25,661 nucleotides of DNA. It comes from a virus. Location: IMG/VR virus record IMGVR_UViG_3300013126_000215, positions 1 to 25,661 of that record. One strand, 5' to 3'. Positions within the stretch are counted from its first letter, which is position 1; the number at the start of each line of letters is the position of its first letter. The translations under genes were made by a program, and so were the position numbers. Positions 1,453-10,548 of this stretch are shown here, piece after piece. Under the pieces are notes generated by a model, which had not been told where the DNA came from, searched no databases, and worked only from the letters and a program-made list of their open reading frames with translations.

Positions 1453-2202
1453 ATGGAACAAATACTAATTACAATTATAGTTACACTAATAATAAAAAAG
1501 TTTTATGATCTAATTAAATCACAATTAGAATGTAAGAGTAAAATCATTGAATTAAAGAAAGAATTACAATTAGAAAGATTAAAGAATGAAGAATTGAATA
1601 TAAAAAATAAACAATTAGAATTAGAAGTCAATAAACTTAAACAAGATCTATCTACAATCAAAGAAAGATTAACAAAAGTAGAGACAACACAAGAGTTTGT
1701 ATTGACTAAAGAAAAGGCGGCGTTGTTAGTGATGTCTAATAAACAGTTTGCAGACAATGATAGAAATGCTCTACGAAGAGCGGGTATCTTATTCCACAGA
1801 TTATCAAGTGGACAGTTTTTAGAATTGAAGAATGAATTACAAAGAAAGAGAATAGAAAACAGACAATATAAGGTAGTTCACATATCTTCTCATGCAAGTA
1901 AAGATGGAATAGAATTTAGTGATGTAACAGTGGGCGGGCAAGAGTTATCAGAAATAATGACTGGTATAGATTTACTCTTTTTAGCCTCCTGTTCTAATGT
2001 AGAAATAGCAGACAATCTTATAGGTATTGTCAAAAACATCATAACAGTCTATGAAGAAATAGAAGACAAAGATATGCAAGAGTTTGTTTATAATTTTTAT
2101 AATGAATTAAAGAAAACATTCAACATACTCGAAAGTTATAATAAAGCAATTACTCTAGTTCCACACGTAAGTGAGTATGTTGACTTAAGGACAAGCACAT
2201 GA
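1453..2202 (+). CDS. Membrane-anchored coiled-coil protein with CHAT-like domain
   Basis: This protein has 249 residues from the ATG at 1453; a TTG at 1441 would add four. Neither start has a clear ribosome site. It opens with one hydrophobic helix (residues 3-14, ILITIIVTLIIK), so the N-terminus is probably in the membrane. A Lys/Glu/Leu coiled coil follows (about 20-78), then a C-terminal domain with the layout of CHAT caspase-like proteases. In that domain a strand leads to HISSH (His143 and His147), then GGQELSEI, then LLFLASC (Cys180). ITVYEEIEDKD follows, and a helix holding NFYNEL ends in a motif with Ala in AI. The usual HG is HA here, and the AGA loop of many CHAT domains is missing, so activity is not certain. 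Its stop overlaps the terminase small-subunit start (ATGA). A role in exclusion, cell suicide or control of packaging is inference. The fold call could be wrong, but the His/Cys spacing fits well. Confidence 0.7.
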   Translation: MEQILITIIVTLIIKKFYDLIKSQLECKSKIIELKKELQLERLKNEELNIKNKQLELEVNKLKQDLSTIKERLTKVETTQEFVLTKEKAALLVMSNKQFADNDRNALRRAGILFHRLSSGQFLELKNELQRKRIENRQYKVVHISSHASKDGIEFSDVTVGGQELSEIMTGIDLLFLASCSNVEIADNLIGIVKNIITVYEEIEDKDMQEFVYNFYNELKKTFNILESYNKAITLVPHVSEYVDLRTST

Positions 2203-2732
2203 CATTCAAAAGAGACTTAGACAAAATAGAAGAAGAGAAGAGATCTCTTCTTTTACTCACTAACGAAGAGCGTAATGCGATTGTGTGGGCTGGAAGACTG
2301 AGAGGAAAGTCGTTTGAAGAGATTCACATTTTTCTAATAACAAATTATGTTTCACAGTTACCACGTGATTATTCAGTGAGGGATGTTCAAAAAGACTTAA
2401 GTTCAGCACTTAATAAATTACAGCCCGCTTACTTAGAGACAGCAGCAGAATTAGTTCAGATAGAAGCACACCGTTTTGATGTAATGTTAGATTCTATTTG
2501 GAATAAAGTCACTAGTGGAGACACAAAAGCGGTTGATGCAGCACTGGCAATCAGTAGAGAACGAAGAAAAATGTTAGGTCTTGATGAACCAGATAAAATT
2601 CAAGTTGACTGGAAAGTCACACTAGCACAATTGATTCAGTCTGGAGACATCACTCCCGCTGATATTGTGAAAGATTTTGGAGAGGAAGTTCTCACAGAAG
2701 TCAATTACAAGTTATTGGAGTTAAATAAATGA
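2199..2732 (+). CDS. Probable terminase small subunit
   Basis: This 177-residue protein would recognise phage DNA and hand it to the large subunit for packaging. It is mostly helical and charged. An N-terminal stretch (about 20-60) including GRLRGKSFEEI fits a helix-turn-helix-like DNA-binding region. A central helix pair with many Glu/Lys follows, and the C-terminus (GDITPADIVKDFGEEVL) could contact the large subunit. The assignment rests mainly on position, size and overlap: ATGA overlaps join it to the CHAT-like gene upstream and the terminase ATPase downstream. Sequence alone would not prove it. Confidence 0.65.
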   Translation: MTFKRDLDKIEEEKRSLLLLTNEERNAIVWAGRLRGKSFEEIHIFLITNYVSQLPRDYSVRDVQKDLSSALNKLQPAYLETAAELVQIEAHRFDVMLDSIWNKVTSGDTKAVDAALAISRERRKMLGLDEPDKIQVDWKVTLAQLIQSGDITPADIVKDFGEEVLTEVNYKLLELNK

Positions 2733-4231
2733 TTCCAGATTCAGTTTTTAAGCAGGCTAAGTTAGAAAAGATAAAAAATGAATTATCTAAAAGAAGTGCT
2801 CTTAAAGCACCGGATAAACCACTATTGTGGTTGATGGCTATATTCCCCACTATCTTCTCAAAACCGTTTGCACAATTCCATGAAGATATGTTTAAGTGGG
2901 CGTGGAGTATTGAACTAGAAAAATCATCCCCCCCTTTCGTCTCAATTCTGTCACGTGGTTTTGGTAAGTCTACTTGCGCAGAGTCTGCCACAATTATGTT
3001 AGGCGCTATGAGAAAGAGATCTTACTGTCTTTACGTTTCTGCTACACAAGATCTTGCTGACCAGCATGTAGCATCTATTAAAGATATGGCTGAAACACCA
3101 ATCATGTCATCATACTATCCCATTTTTGCAAAACCTAAATTGAGTAAAGAGGGGCATTATCGTTCGTGGCGTAGAAACAGACTTGCTTTTGGAAATGGAT
3201 TTACTGTTGATAGTGTTGGCCTTGATAGTGCAAAGCGTGGTAGTAAAATGATGGACAAACGCCCAGACTTGATTGTCTTAGACGACATTGATGAGAAGGG
3301 CGACAGTCCGACAATTACACAAAAGAAAATAGATGCTATCTTCACATCACTCTTACCCGCTGGATCTAAAGACTTAACCATCCTAGCAGTACAAAACATG
3401 ATTATTGATACTGGTATTTTTTCAAGATTGAGTCAAGACGATCCCCCCTTTTTAAAAAACAGAATACTTTCTGGACCCTATCCCGCACTACAAAACTTTA
3501 ATTGGAATTACAAAAAGGATTCAACTGGTAAAACATTGATTGAAGTCAGTGGAGAGCCGACATGGAAGGGCTTCACACTTGAAAACATTCAAGAAATCAT
3601 AAACAACATTGGAATTACTGCATTCCAAAGTGAATACCAACATCTCATCGTTGATGAATCTTCAATGTTCAATGGAATTAAATTTCAGAGAATTCCACAA
3701 TCACAAGTTCCAGAACTTTTTTATAAGGTTGTATCTTTGGATCCGGCTGTTACAAGTAATGATGGTAGTGACAGTCATGGTATCTCTGTAATGGGAGTAA
3801 GTGATAAAGGAAACTACTACATTCTTGAAAGTTGGGAAAAGAGAGCAACACCAGAGCTTGCTTTGAGAAAAGCACTTTATTTTTGCATAAAGTATGGAGT
3901 TACATTATTGCAAATAGAAAGCAATCAAGGTGGTGAATTGTGGTACAACTTATGGGACAATATAGTTGACCAAACAGGTATGTCAAATGATGATAGAATG
4001 CCTGGGCTTGAGATTGTACGTGCTTCAACGTCTACAGGCGGAAAAATGGAGAGAGCAAGTCAAATGTTGATTGATTATGAATTAGGCAAAGTTTTTCATG
4101 TAGACAATGATTCAACAAACGAACTAGAGGTTGCACTTATGCGATTTCCTACTCGCAAGCCATTCGATCTTGTCGATGCTACATACTGGTCCTGGCAAGC
4201 CTGTAGCAACGCTTCTAGGTGGGTTTTATGA
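2729..4231 (+). CDS. terL: Terminase large subunit
   Basis: This 500-residue packaging motor has an ATPase and a nuclease domain. The Walker A loop is SRGFGKST (residues 75-82), and Walker B is LIVLDDID (181-188) with tandem Asp. SATQ (104-107) is a likely coupling or adenine-side motif. The RNase-H-like nuclease domain shows its three acidic positions: Asp338 in SLDPAVT, Glu397 in IESNQGG, and Asp480/Asp483 in DLVDA. Length and motif order are normal for a full-length protein. It powers DNA translocation into the prohead through the portal and cuts the concatemer. Its start overlaps the small-subunit stop (ATGA). The next gene is 91 bp away, separated by the structured element at 4265-4311. 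Confidence 0.95.
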   Translation: MIPDSVFKQAKLEKIKNELSKRSALKAPDKPLLWLMAIFPTIFSKPFAQFHEDMFKWAWSIELEKSSPPFVSILSRGFGKSTCAESATIMLGAMRKRSYCLYVSATQDLADQHVASIKDMAETPIMSSYYPIFAKPKLSKEGHYRSWRRNRLAFGNGFTVDSVGLDSAKRGSKMMDKRPDLIVLDDIDEKGDSPTITQKKIDAIFTSLLPAGSKDLTILAVQNMIIDTGIFSRLSQDDPPFLKNRILSGPYPALQNFNWNYKKDSTGKTLIEVSGEPTWKGFTLENIQEIINNIGITAFQSEYQHLIVDESSMFNGIKFQRIPQSQVPELFYKVVSLDPAVTSNDGSDSHGISVMGVSDKGNYYILESWEKRATPELALRKALYFCIKYGVTLLQIESNQGGELWYNLWDNIVDQTGMSNDDRMPGLEIVRASTSTGGKMERASQMLIDYELGKVFHVDNDSTNELEVALMRFPTRKPFDLVDATYWSWQACSNASRWVL

Positions 4232-4322: not shown

Positions 4323-5132
4323 ATGTTAAAAGTCTTCAGTTTCGGCGGTGGTCGTCAGTCAATGGCTGTCCTTGTTCTTGCTTCGCAAGCCATTTTAAAA
4401 TACGATGCATTCCTTTTTTCAAATGTAGGTAATGATGCAGAAAATCCAGATACAATAAAGTATTTTAATGAGTATGCACTACCGTTTGCACAAAAACACA
4501 ATCTTAATCTAATTGAAGTCAGTCGTATTCCTACAAAAGGTAGAAACAAAGATAAGTCTGAAAGTCTTTACCAAAATTTGATTTTTGAAAATAGAAGAAC
4601 GATTGAAATTCCTGTTCATATGAAAAATGGTGCACCAGGAAGAAGAGCGTGCACACATGAGTTTAAGATAAAGGTTGTAGGTAAATGGTTGAGTAAACAT
4701 GGTGCAACCAAAGAAAATCCTGCAATCACTGGTATTGGAATATCTTTAGATGAATTTCAGCGTGCAAGAAATAAAGCCTACTATGATTGGCAAACACTAG
4801 AATATCCACTATTAGACTTAAAACTTACAAAAGATGATTGTATTAAAATAATCAAAGATTCTGGATTGCCAATTCCACCAAAGTCAGCCTGCTGGTTCTG
4901 TCCTTTTCATACAAACGAAGAATGGATAGACTTAAGAATCAAAAAACCAGAATTGTTTCAGAAGGCGGTAGACTTAGAAAAAACTTTGAATGAACGAAGA
5001 AAAATGTTGAACAGAGATGAAATATATTTAACACAATATGGAGTGCCACTAAATGAAGCTTTTGATTATCAACTTAAATTTTTTGATGAGAGTGTTGAGC
5101 TTACTTGTGACACTGGCCATTGTTTTGTTTAA
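4323..5132 (+). CDS. PAPS-reductase-family (PP-loop) protein
   Basis: This 269-residue protein belongs to the adenine-nucleotide alpha-hydrolase (PAPS reductase/DndC-like) superfamily. The N-terminal nucleotide loop is SFGGGRQS (residues 6-13). RRACTHEFK follows with Cys110, then SACWFCPFH with Cys190 and Cys193, and the C-terminus ends in CDTGHCFV (Cys262, Cys267). The cysteine set suggests an Fe-S cluster or zinc site. Relatives are known in many phages, usually with no proven function. They are often suspected of moving sulfur or activating a substrate by adenylation. The start is well set by GGAAGGGAG, 7 nt before the ATG. The DNA methyltransferase starts 15 nt after its stop, so a joint role in DNA modification is reasonable but inferred. 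It is probably not a housekeeping sulfate reductase. Confidence 0.85.
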   Translation: MLKVFSFGGGRQSMAVLVLASQAILKYDAFLFSNVGNDAENPDTIKYFNEYALPFAQKHNLNLIEVSRIPTKGRNKDKSESLYQNLIFENRRTIEIPVHMKNGAPGRRACTHEFKIKVVGKWLSKHGATKENPAITGIGISLDEFQRARNKAYYDWQTLEYPLLDLKLTKDDCIKIIKDSGLPIPPKSACWFCPFHTNEEWIDLRIKKPELFQKAVDLEKTLNERRKMLNRDEIYLTQYGVPLNEAFDYQLKFFDESVELTCDTGHCFV

Positions 5133-5147
5133 TAGAAAGGTTTTTTG

Positions 5148-6377
5148 ATGAATAATTTATTTTTTGGTGACAATCTTGAAGTAATGAAAACATTTCCTGA
5201 CAATACTTTCGATAGTGTTGTTACTGACCCACCATATGGAATTGGATTTATGAATAAAAAGTGGGACAGTCTTGACAATGATTTTCATTTTAAGTGGGCC
5301 AGTGAAGTTTTAAGAGTAATCAAGCCCGGTGGGCATATGTTTGTTTTTGGTTCACCACGAACATACCATCGTTTGACTGTTGCAATAGAGGATGCAGGAT
5401 GGGAAGTCAGAGATTGTTTGATGTGGTTGTATGGAGAAGGTTTTCCAAAGTCTATGGATGTGGCGAAAGCCATTGATTCTTTTTATGGAAAGAAGGGTGA
5501 ATATGGAGACTACAAAACGCAAGAGCATGCAATTCCAAGAAAGCCAGCAAACCAAAGAATGGAAGAGGGATATCAACGACCTTGGAGAGATGATAAAGAG
5601 GCAGTGGAAAGAAATCTCAGAGAATATATTCCAGAAACAGAGGAAGCTAAAGGTTGGCAAGGATGGGGGACTGCGCTTAAACCAGCATGGGAGCCTATCA
5701 TACTAGTAAGGAAACCATTGTCTGAAAAGACAGTTGCTGCAAATGTAATCAAATATGGAACAGGCTCACTGAATATAGGTGAAAATAAAATTTACACAAA
5801 ATCTCTTGAAAACACTGGAAGATGGCCTGCTAATTTAATTTTAGATGATGATCCATATATCATTAGCCAGTTACCTAAAAATAAATCAAACGATCGAGTG
5901 AGAAGAAACACTGTACCAAACTTTGGTTCTCAAGCTGTTTATCATAAAAGTAAGATTGTTTATGCAACAGGATTCAAAGACGAGGGGTCTGTTGCAAGAT
6001 TTTTTTATTGCTCTAAAGCAAGTAAAAGCGAAAGAGAATTTGGTCTAGACAATTTTGAGTTTTCTATTGTAGATGACGGTAGAGACAAAAAGATTGACAA
6101 TCCTTACTTAAGAGGAAAAACTGAAAGAAAAAACATTCATCCAACAGTCAAGCCAGTAAAATTATTAAGATATCTTGTTAGATTGATTACTCCAACAGAA
6201 GGTAAGATTTTGGATCCATTCATGGGAAGTGGAAGCACTGGAATTGCTTGTGTGTTGGAAAACAAAAATTTTTTTGGAATTGAAATAGAAAAAGATTATT
6301 TCGATGTTTCGCAAGCAAGGATTGCGCAAGCAGAAATTGTGCAAAGTTCGTTAGACAATCAGGAGAACAAACAATAA
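5148..6377 (+). CDS. DNA methyltransferase, beta-class N6A/N4C
   Basis: This 409-residue protein transfers a methyl group from SAM to adenine N6 or cytosine N4. The catalytic motif IV DPPYG is at residues 27-31, near the N-terminus. A long central region (about 90-320) holds the target-recognition part. The SAM-binding motif LDPFMGSGSTG lies near residues 355-365. This IV-before-I order marks the beta class. The ATG at 5148 is preferred over the TTG at 5145, since AGAAAGG lies 7 nt before it. No restriction nuclease is next to it, so it is an orphan enzyme, perhaps protecting phage DNA or marking control sites. It directly abuts the portal gene. The target sequence cannot be read from the protein. 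Confidence 0.93.
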   Translation: MNNLFFGDNLEVMKTFPDNTFDSVVTDPPYGIGFMNKKWDSLDNDFHFKWASEVLRVIKPGGHMFVFGSPRTYHRLTVAIEDAGWEVRDCLMWLYGEGFPKSMDVAKAIDSFYGKKGEYGDYKTQEHAIPRKPANQRMEEGYQRPWRDDKEAVERNLREYIPETEEAKGWQGWGTALKPAWEPIILVRKPLSEKTVAANVIKYGTGSLNIGENKIYTKSLENTGRWPANLILDDDPYIISQLPKNKSNDRVRRNTVPNFGSQAVYHKSKIVYATGFKDEGSVARFFYCSKASKSEREFGLDNFEFSIVDDGRDKKIDNPYLRGKTERKNIHPTVKPVKLLRYLVRLITPTEGKILDPFMGSGSTGIACVLENKNFFGIEIEKDYFDVSQARIAQAEIVQSSLDNQENKQ

Positions 6378-8832: not shown

Positions 8833-10548
8833 ATGATGATTAAATTTGTAAGTGAAACAGAAAACGACCTTATTTTACAAGGAATGGGTGTTGTTTTCAA
8901 CAAATATGATTTAGATGGTGAAGTTTTTACTAAAGAAACAAACTTTTTTATAGATGCTGTCAATTATGTTCCCGTTCTTTACGGACACAACAGAAAAGAA
9001 ATTACTGAAGTGTTAGGTAAAGCTACTATATCTAGTATAACTGAAGAGGGAATTCTTTTTGACATTATTATTCAACGAAGTAATAAATACTTCAATCTTA
9101 TCAAAAAGCTTGTTGAAGTTGGAAGACTTGGATTGAGCACTGGTGCTTTGCCACAGACAATGGAAAAAGATGGAAACATTATTAAACAATGGCAGATAGG
9201 TGAAATTAGTTTAGTAGAGAATCCAGCAGAACCATCTACAATCTTTACATTACAAGAAATTAAAAACTTCTCAGAGAGTTCTTCAGAGAGTGCACTTGCG
9301 CTAGAAGAGCTAGAAGAAGATAAAAATATAAAAATTGAAATTATAGGAGAAGAAAATAAAATGGATACGAATGTTATTGAGAATGCCAATGAAACGCCCG
9401 TGAAGGCAGTCACGCAAGATTATGATGCTATTTTTGCTAAGTTTGAAGATAAGCTTAGTAAGATTATGAACATCATTGAAAACACTCCGGTTGCTAAGGC
9501 TGGTTATGTTACTCAGGATGGCGGTGTTGCTGACAAAAACATTAAAAGTTTTGGTGATTTTCTTGTTGCTGTGAAGCGCAACGACCACAAACGTTTGACT
9601 GAATTGTACAAGACCACGAAAGACTTGGGAGAAACTCCCGGTAGCAGTGGTGGCTATCTTGTTCCTACTGAGTATTCCACTAGCCTTATTCAGGTTGCTG
9701 CTATGGAAAATCAGATTTACAGTCGTGTTCAGAAAGTTCCTGTTTTGAGAAATAGTGGAACGTACCCTGCACTTGACCAGTATTTCACGCCTACGGCTGG
9801 TGCTGGTGAAACTTATGGTGCTGGTGGTGTAAAAACTAACTTTACTCAGGCTGGACAGGAATTCACTGAGACTGAACCTGCTTTTTCTACGCTCGAATGG
9901 CGTTTGAATAAGATTGGTGGGTTTACTGAAGTGGAAAATGAATTGCTGGAAGATTCTCCCTTTGCAATTGAAGCACTGTTGCGTGGTTTGTTCCAGGTCG
10001 CTATTGCCGCAAAGAATGAAAGAAACATTCTTCGTGGAAGTGGGCTTGGAGAGCCTCTCGGCATTCTGAATTCTAATGTTGCAATCGGCGTTAGCGACGA
10101 AACCACTGGCAAATTCAAGTGGGAAGATGTTGGCAAGATGTATTCCAAGTTCAAGTCGATTGGTGGTCAGCCTACGTGGATTATTCATCCTTCTGTTTTT
10201 CCCCAGTTGATGATTATGAACAACAGCACTGTGACTGCATGGCAAAGTAGCTTGAATGGTGGACCCATGAATTCTTTGAATGGTTATCCAATCATTGTTT
10301 CTGAACACATGCCCCAGTTAGGTGCAAATGGTGCTGTTATGCTTGCAGACTTGACTTCCTATGTTATGTGGGAAAAGGCTGGCCTTACTATCGCTTTTAG
10401 CGATCAGGTTGGGTTTAAGCGAGATGTTGGTACTTGGGTTTTCCGTCAGCGCAACGATGGTAAGCCCTGGTTCAAGTCTCCCATCACTCTGGCTGGCCCT
10501 GGAAGTGCTTATACTGTTTCTCCCTTTGTTTACATTATCAACGATTAA
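8833..10548 (+). CDS. Prohead protease fused to major capsid protein
   Basis: This 571-residue fusion starts at ATG 8833 (or the next ATG at 8836), with AAGGAG just upstream. Residues 1-150 form an HK97/U35-type prohead protease: His52 in LYGHN, Ser102 in GRLGLSTGA, and the acidic motif GEISLVENPAEPS (Glu124/Glu129). A Ser/Glu-rich linker spans about 150-176. The rest is an HK97-fold capsid protein: a short delta-like region (177-255), the GSSGGYLVP start of the mature shell, and the E-loop, A- and P-domain segments up to GKPWFKSP. Codon choice changes at about 9361, from AT-rich before to the pattern of highly expressed genes after. An internal ATG with its own ribosome site lies at that point. 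Fusions of this type are known in other phages. Confidence 0.92.
   Translation: MMIKFVSETENDLILQGMGVVFNKYDLDGEVFTKETNFFIDAVNYVPVLYGHNRKEITEVLGKATISSITEEGILFDIIIQRSNKYFNLIKKLVEVGRLGLSTGALPQTMEKDGNIIKQWQIGEISLVENPAEPSTIFTLQEIKNFSESSSESALALEELEEDKNIKIEIIGEENKMDTNVIENANETPVKAVTQDYDAIFAKFEDKLSKIMNIIENTPVAKAGYVTQDGGVADKNIKSFGDFLVAVKRNDHKRLTELYKTTKDLGETPGSSGGYLVPTEYSTSLIQVAAMENQIYSRVQKVPVLRNSGTYPALDQYFTPTAGAGETYGAGGVKTNFTQAGQEFTETEPAFSTLEWRLNKIGGFTEVENELLEDSPFAIEALLRGLFQVAIAAKNERNILRGSGLGEPLGILNSNVAIGVSDETTGKFKWEDVGKMYSKFKSIGGQPTWIIHPSVFPQLMIMNNSTVTAWQSSLNGGPMNSLNGYPIIVSEHMPQLGANGAVMLADLTSYVMWEKAGLTIAFSDQVGFKRDVGTWVFRQRNDGKPWFKSPITLAGPGSAYTVSPFVYIIND
9345..9363 (+). promoter_or_regulatory. Internal start for capsid protein alone
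   Basis: AGGAGA (9345-9350) lies 10 nt before an in-frame ATG at 9361, codon 177 of the fusion. Initiation here would give a free 395-residue capsid protein lacking the protease. That would solve the stoichiometry problem of a one-to-one fusion. The start coincides with the change in codon use. Confidence 0.6.

Follow-up and report, generated by a model that had tools for sequence, protein, structure and literature searches.

A putative membrane-anchored CHAT caspase-like peptidase encoded upstream of the terminase genes in a clade of uncultivated phages

CHAT proteases are bacterial weapons against phages and are used in cell death and defence. This raises the question of what a gene for such a protein would do at the head of a phage packaging operon, where the original prediction had placed one on a 25,661-base virus contig (referred to here, over its whole length, as the window). 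The open reading frame concerned (1453–2202, plus strand, 249 amino acids) was described as encoding a membrane-anchored CHAT-like protein with a hydrophobic helix, a coiled coil, and four C-terminal motifs. All of these were found in the reading frame as described, with HISSH at residues 143–147, LASC ending at Cys180, ITVYEEIEDKD at residues 197–207, and FYNEL at residues 215–219.

The reading frame is a real gene and not a chance one, since it revealed a codon-position bias and a low dN/dS ratio and is found again in this position on five further virus contigs. Compared with L002, the codon-position differences amounted to 23/18/72, and dN/dS was about 0.085 for the whole gene and 0.053 for residues 85–249, a value of about 0.05 that resembles that of the terminase genes; this estimate of strong purifying selection is based on the relative L002/L003, which is 90% identical. 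The start codon is an ATG at 1453, which is also the conserved start in L002, while an alternative TTG at 1441 would add four amino acids. The stop codon (TGA, 2200–2202) overlaps the start of the next gene (ATG at 2199) as ATGA, confirming the coupling noticed earlier. About 100 bp upstream of the gene, a 348-bp (TATACATACA)n tract was detected (1001–1348); the same kind of tract precedes the gene in L003, with weaker low-complexity stretches upstream in L042 and L047. About six tandem copies of TTATCCCAAAT are located in a non-coding region at 475–558.

Comparison of the window protein with the Pfam CHAT family (PF12770) resulted in E-values of 4.6e-4 (full length) and 2.9e-4 (domain) at 20.2–20.8 bits, which is under the curated gathering threshold of 24 bits. 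The family was matched by all five phage members tested (best domain E-value 9.1e-6), one of which, the orthologue L018, passed this cutoff with 24.5 bits. Furthermore, a phage-only profile, built from the five members, aligned with a profile of 11 other CHAT domains over 146 columns (hhalign 97.9%, E-value 6.1e-13), and the plasmid genes underlying weak tblastn matches of the phage gene turned out to encode CHAT proteins in five of five annotated cases. A profile search of the PDB with the phage-only alignment found no CHAT chain, so that the sequence link to the PDB rests on mixed alignments; with phage and bacterial sequences combined, SAVED-CHAT 8TL0 was matched at 1.5e-33 with both catalytic motifs aligned. 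At the level of sequence, these profile comparisons support homology of the phage protein to CHAT domains. A chance motif match would be in line with the score of the window protein alone (20.2 versus 24 bits) and with an AF2 model from only two sequences, which was uninformative on the domain, but the profile–profile E-value, the score of L018 above the curated cutoff, and the ranking of SAVED-CHAT followed by caspases among the fold matches make such a coincidence extremely improbable.

In regard to its predicted fold, the CHAT caspase-like domain (residues 80–249; 1690–2199, plus strand) was delimited by AF2, Foldseek, and hhalign. Its AF2 model, computed from an 18-sequence alignment, reached a pLDDT of 89.2 and a pTM of 0.86, though it is not independent of the homology, as the input alignment contained bacterial CHAT rows. 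It replaced a full-length model from two phage sequences (pLDDT 53), in which only the N-terminal helix was reliable. The elements of the modelled domain follow the order beta-alpha-beta-alpha-beta(H)...beta(C)-alpha-beta. Foldseek revealed SAVED-CHAT 8TL0 as the best PDB match (TM up to 0.82, E-value down to 2.2e-10), with a superposition at 2.3–2.4 Å across most of the domain, followed by caspase-6, CED-3, and caspase-8; C. elegans separase ranked lower, and c-FLIP was found among the neighbours. In proteins of clan CD, the catalytic His follows beta-3 and the catalytic Cys follows beta-4. The model supports a caspase-like fold with exactly this placement, in agreement with the CHAT or caspase fold that had been anticipated.

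Only six columns were invariant among 18 aligned CHAT domains (five phage members and 13 others), namely Leu92, His143, Ser145, His147, Leu177, and Cys180 (window numbering). Among them are the two residues singled out in the original prediction, His147 (codon 1891–1893, plus strand; in HISSH, just after beta-3) and Cys180 (codon 1990–1992, plus strand; in LASC, just after beta-4), which are shared without exception by the five full-length phage members and the 13 other domains and align with HFIGHG and LNAC of 8TL0, respectively. We infer that the phage CHAT protein is a peptidase with a His147/Cys180 dyad. In Craspase, whose dyad is H585/C627, mutation of the Cys abolishes activity (PMC9729208).

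The part preceding the CHAT domain comprises a single predicted transmembrane helix (residues 3–21; 1459–1515, plus strand), assigned from hydropathy and flanking charges and present as the same pattern in L002, L018, L037, and L038, and a helical or coiled-coil stretch (residues about 22–75; 1516–1677, plus strand). The Kyte–Doolittle value of 1.71 for residues 3–21 is weak alone; it ranges from 1.65 to 3.61 in the four relatives. The full-length AF2 model displayed a helix over residues 2–95 (pLDDT 75–91 over residues 1–70), and profile matches of the helical stretch point to coiled coils of the ZapB, FtsB, and DivIC type. The plan of one N-terminal transmembrane helix, a helical stretch, and a CHAT domain is shared by all five full-length members and is kept even though the N-terminal part diverges to 10–31% identity between distant members. 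Since the positive charge is higher after the transmembrane helix than before it (5/5 members), an N-out/C-in topology with a cytoplasmic CHAT domain is predicted from the sequences, and the coiled coil probably oligomerises the protein.

The gene overlapping the CHAT stop codon (2199–2732, plus strand, 177 amino acids) is presumed to encode the terminase small subunit (TerS), judging from its location, its size, and the coupling to terL. It is conserved in relatives, and its only family match was phrog_645 (E-value 1.2e-13), labelled 'RNase E'. It is followed by the gene for the terminase large subunit (TerL) (2729–4231, plus strand; phrog_38, E-value 4.4e-47; Pfam Terminase_6C above its cutoff). 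Further neighbours encode the portal, a capsid protein fused to the head protease, the major tail protein, and the tape measure. In this fusion, head-maturation protease and major capsid protein apparently form one 571-aa gene (8833–10548; phrog_80, phrog_10). Between terL and the portal gene (4323–6377), we identified a PAPS-reductase-like gene and a DNA methyltransferase. As relatives carry different cargo there, i.e., a methyltransferase-like gene (L004) or HNH-like genes (L005, L006, and L038), this region looks like a variable slot.

Among terL relatives gathered at about 50% identity or more, the CHAT gene was located upstream of terS in all six clade contigs reaching that far (the window, L003, L004, L018, L037, and L038), and it is kept at that place down to 33% identity. 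A linkage to packaging genes in other phages, as the original prediction had proposed to look for, was thus found. L004 shows only the last 55 amino acids of the gene because of the contig end, five full-length phage members being available, and L005, L006, and L007, which end within or just after terS, fall outside this count. Identity of the CHAT domain across phage pairs tracks that of TerL (r 0.93), its mean of 53.9% in five phages is matched by 53.4% for TerS, indicating the same pace of divergence, and the five phage CHAT domains form one branch in the tree (98/96). Gene order, co-divergence with terL and terS, and the single branch suggest that, as far as seen, a single acquisition was followed by joint descent with the packaging genes; the CHAT gene belongs to the core of this clade and is passed on vertically.

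No CHAT gene was detected in the readable sequence of terL relatives at 38–43% identity (viral contigs L008–L011 and L040). A host search with a terL profile over 397, 291, and 40 genomes of three phyla resulted in only five distant prophage-like relatives, none with an HxxxH CHAT-like reading frame in about 1.5 kb of flanking sequence; the scan of the genome collection used one pattern, which would miss the L037/L038 type (LYDVVHISSH). A tblastn search of the CHAT gene against the phage collection resulted in no match. An unannotated fecal contig (MT836801.1, L017) contains an 830-aa frame with a CHAT-like domain; it was not counted, as its surroundings do not appear phage-like.

In L037 and L038, the CHAT gene and terS are separated by a gene whose 86-aa product has one or two predicted transmembrane helices (L037 1962–2222; L038 1472–1732), and L037 encodes a further, 59-aa protein of this kind between terS and terL (2789–2968). 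No family match was found for these small proteins beside terS, which may be partners of the CHAT protein. In L040, which is more distantly related, the genes just upstream of terL were read by eye as probably encoding an M15-type endolysin and a holin-like protein. Taken together, the small membrane proteins and the lysis-like genes indicate that genes for late membrane or lysis functions are found at this location.

We propose, with about an even chance of being right, that the CHAT protein is a late, inner-membrane-tethered His/Cys peptidase whose substrate lies on the cytoplasmic side of that membrane and whose activity serves lysis or late takeover of the host. Translational coupling to terS would cause it to be made together with the packaging genes, and this coupling to the terminase genes suggests late expression. 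Clustering through the coiled coil at the inner membrane would activate the peptidase, which may then cleave a single protein or a few of them on its cytoplasmic side, likely serving late host takeover, either by eliminating a host protein of defence or of the envelope or by helping or timing lysis. We prefer this purpose because of the endolysin- and holin-like genes of L040 at this location and the recurring small membrane proteins. The link to lysis is one of position, as no endolysin was recognised near the CHAT gene in the clade contigs examined, and the Ala that follows the catalytic His in the window group, instead of the common Gly, counts against the proposal. A reading in which the peptidase is integral to the late programme of the clade, being produced in concert with the packaging motor and licensing packaging or timing lysis through cleavage of a phage or membrane protein, seems rather unlikely.

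The protein could also act in superinfection exclusion or inter-phage killing, sensing a competing infection or a defence signal, cleaving a target, and killing the cell or blocking the newcomer. Membrane tethering would suit this role, and CHAT domains are part of effectors of bacterial defence (loci annotated TIR, SAVED, and EAD1; Craspase, PMC9729208; SAVED-CHAT 8TL0). Nevertheless, we consider it unlikely, since coupling to terS implies expression at a time when exclusion would bring little more benefit, an integrase was not recognised in the window, no prophage carrying the CHAT gene was found, and no sensor domain besides the coiled coil is present; expression late in every infection is more in line with takeover or lysis than with exclusion of the classical kind, expressed from a prophage. 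If heads were assembled or filled at the membrane, the CHAT protein might instead dock or process terminase, portal, or another head protein there, as would be suggested by its co-divergence with TerS and TerL and by the strict association of its gene, including overlap, with the terminase genes throughout the six contigs. This role appears doubtful in view of the head-maturation protease already present in fusion with the major capsid protein, the terminase relatives outside the clade that lack a CHAT gene where upstream sequence is readable, and the additional gene separating CHAT from terS in L037 and L038.

A non-enzymatic CHAT protein might serve as a decoy or inhibitor, binding host CHAT-dependent defence complexes or their substrates, much as c-FLIP plays such a role towards caspase-8. 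The presence of c-FLIP among the structural neighbours and the many CHAT effectors in bacteria would agree with this, but a decoy has no need of a dyad that is invariant across members only 40–60% identical in the domain, which renders it very unlikely. Regarding the original interpretation, the fold, the membrane anchor, and the location in front of the packaging genes are supported, while exclusion, killing of competitors, and a packaging checkpoint gained no direct support.

Among known systems, SAVED-CHAT 8TL0 shares the CHAT fold and the aligned His and Cys motifs, but has SAVED as its sensor domain and is part of the type III CRISPR immunity of bacteria, whereas the phage protein consists of a transmembrane helix and a coiled coil before the CHAT domain and is encoded in a packaging operon. 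Neither a SAVED nor a TPR sensor domain was found in the window protein, in which only these two elements precede CHAT, and no CRISPR or CBASS neighbourhood was seen, the neighbours being terminase, portal, and head genes. TPR-CHAT/Csx29 of Craspase (type III-E CRISPR) likewise belongs to the CHAT peptidases and carries a His/Cys dyad (H585/C627, PMC9729208), but differs in its TPR domain, RNA-guided activation, role in bacterial defence, and lack of a transmembrane anchor, and no sequence match to it was found. Caspases and separase (clan CD) share the general fold without a detectable sequence relation to the phage profile. Actinobacterial coiled-coil CHAT proteins (e.g., WP_111072660.1; L012, L020, L024, L026, and L027) resemble the phage protein in an N-terminal coiled-coil-like region, a small C-terminal CHAT domain, and an EIxD-like motif; unlike it, they are chromosomally or plasmid-encoded, with about 20–25% identity in the CHAT domain and no transmembrane helix noticed. 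The N-terminal part of one of them, from Curtobacterium, matches the PADLOC candidate family PDC-S66, and a gene of this actinobacterial type lies directly after a tyrosine-recombinase-like reading frame on a 58.9-kb virus contig (L049, 3413–4510).

PADLOC has no family for the full-length window protein, PHROGs revealed only weak coiled-coil matches and none in its CHAT region, and no account of such a phage CHAT gene was found in open-access papers, in agreement with the original prediction that no phage system with this layout had been described. A few other phage or viral proteins found by structure search share the fold, e.g., A0A8S5MXG5 (Myoviridae sp. ctWaE18) and several giant-virus caspases, so that CHAT/caspase folds are not unique to this clade among viruses; what appears to be novel is the membrane-anchored CHAT form tied to terS in uncultivated phages. 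Kept by a phage clade as a core gene tied to the packaging operon, CHAT would be an example of an enzyme known from defence against phages serving the phage instead, and, if it licensed packaging or timed lysis, a death-type caspase relative would be part of the phage's own exit machinery. With His147 and Cys180, it would offer a concrete, mutable target for studying the ways in which phages subvert programmed death in bacteria or imitate it.
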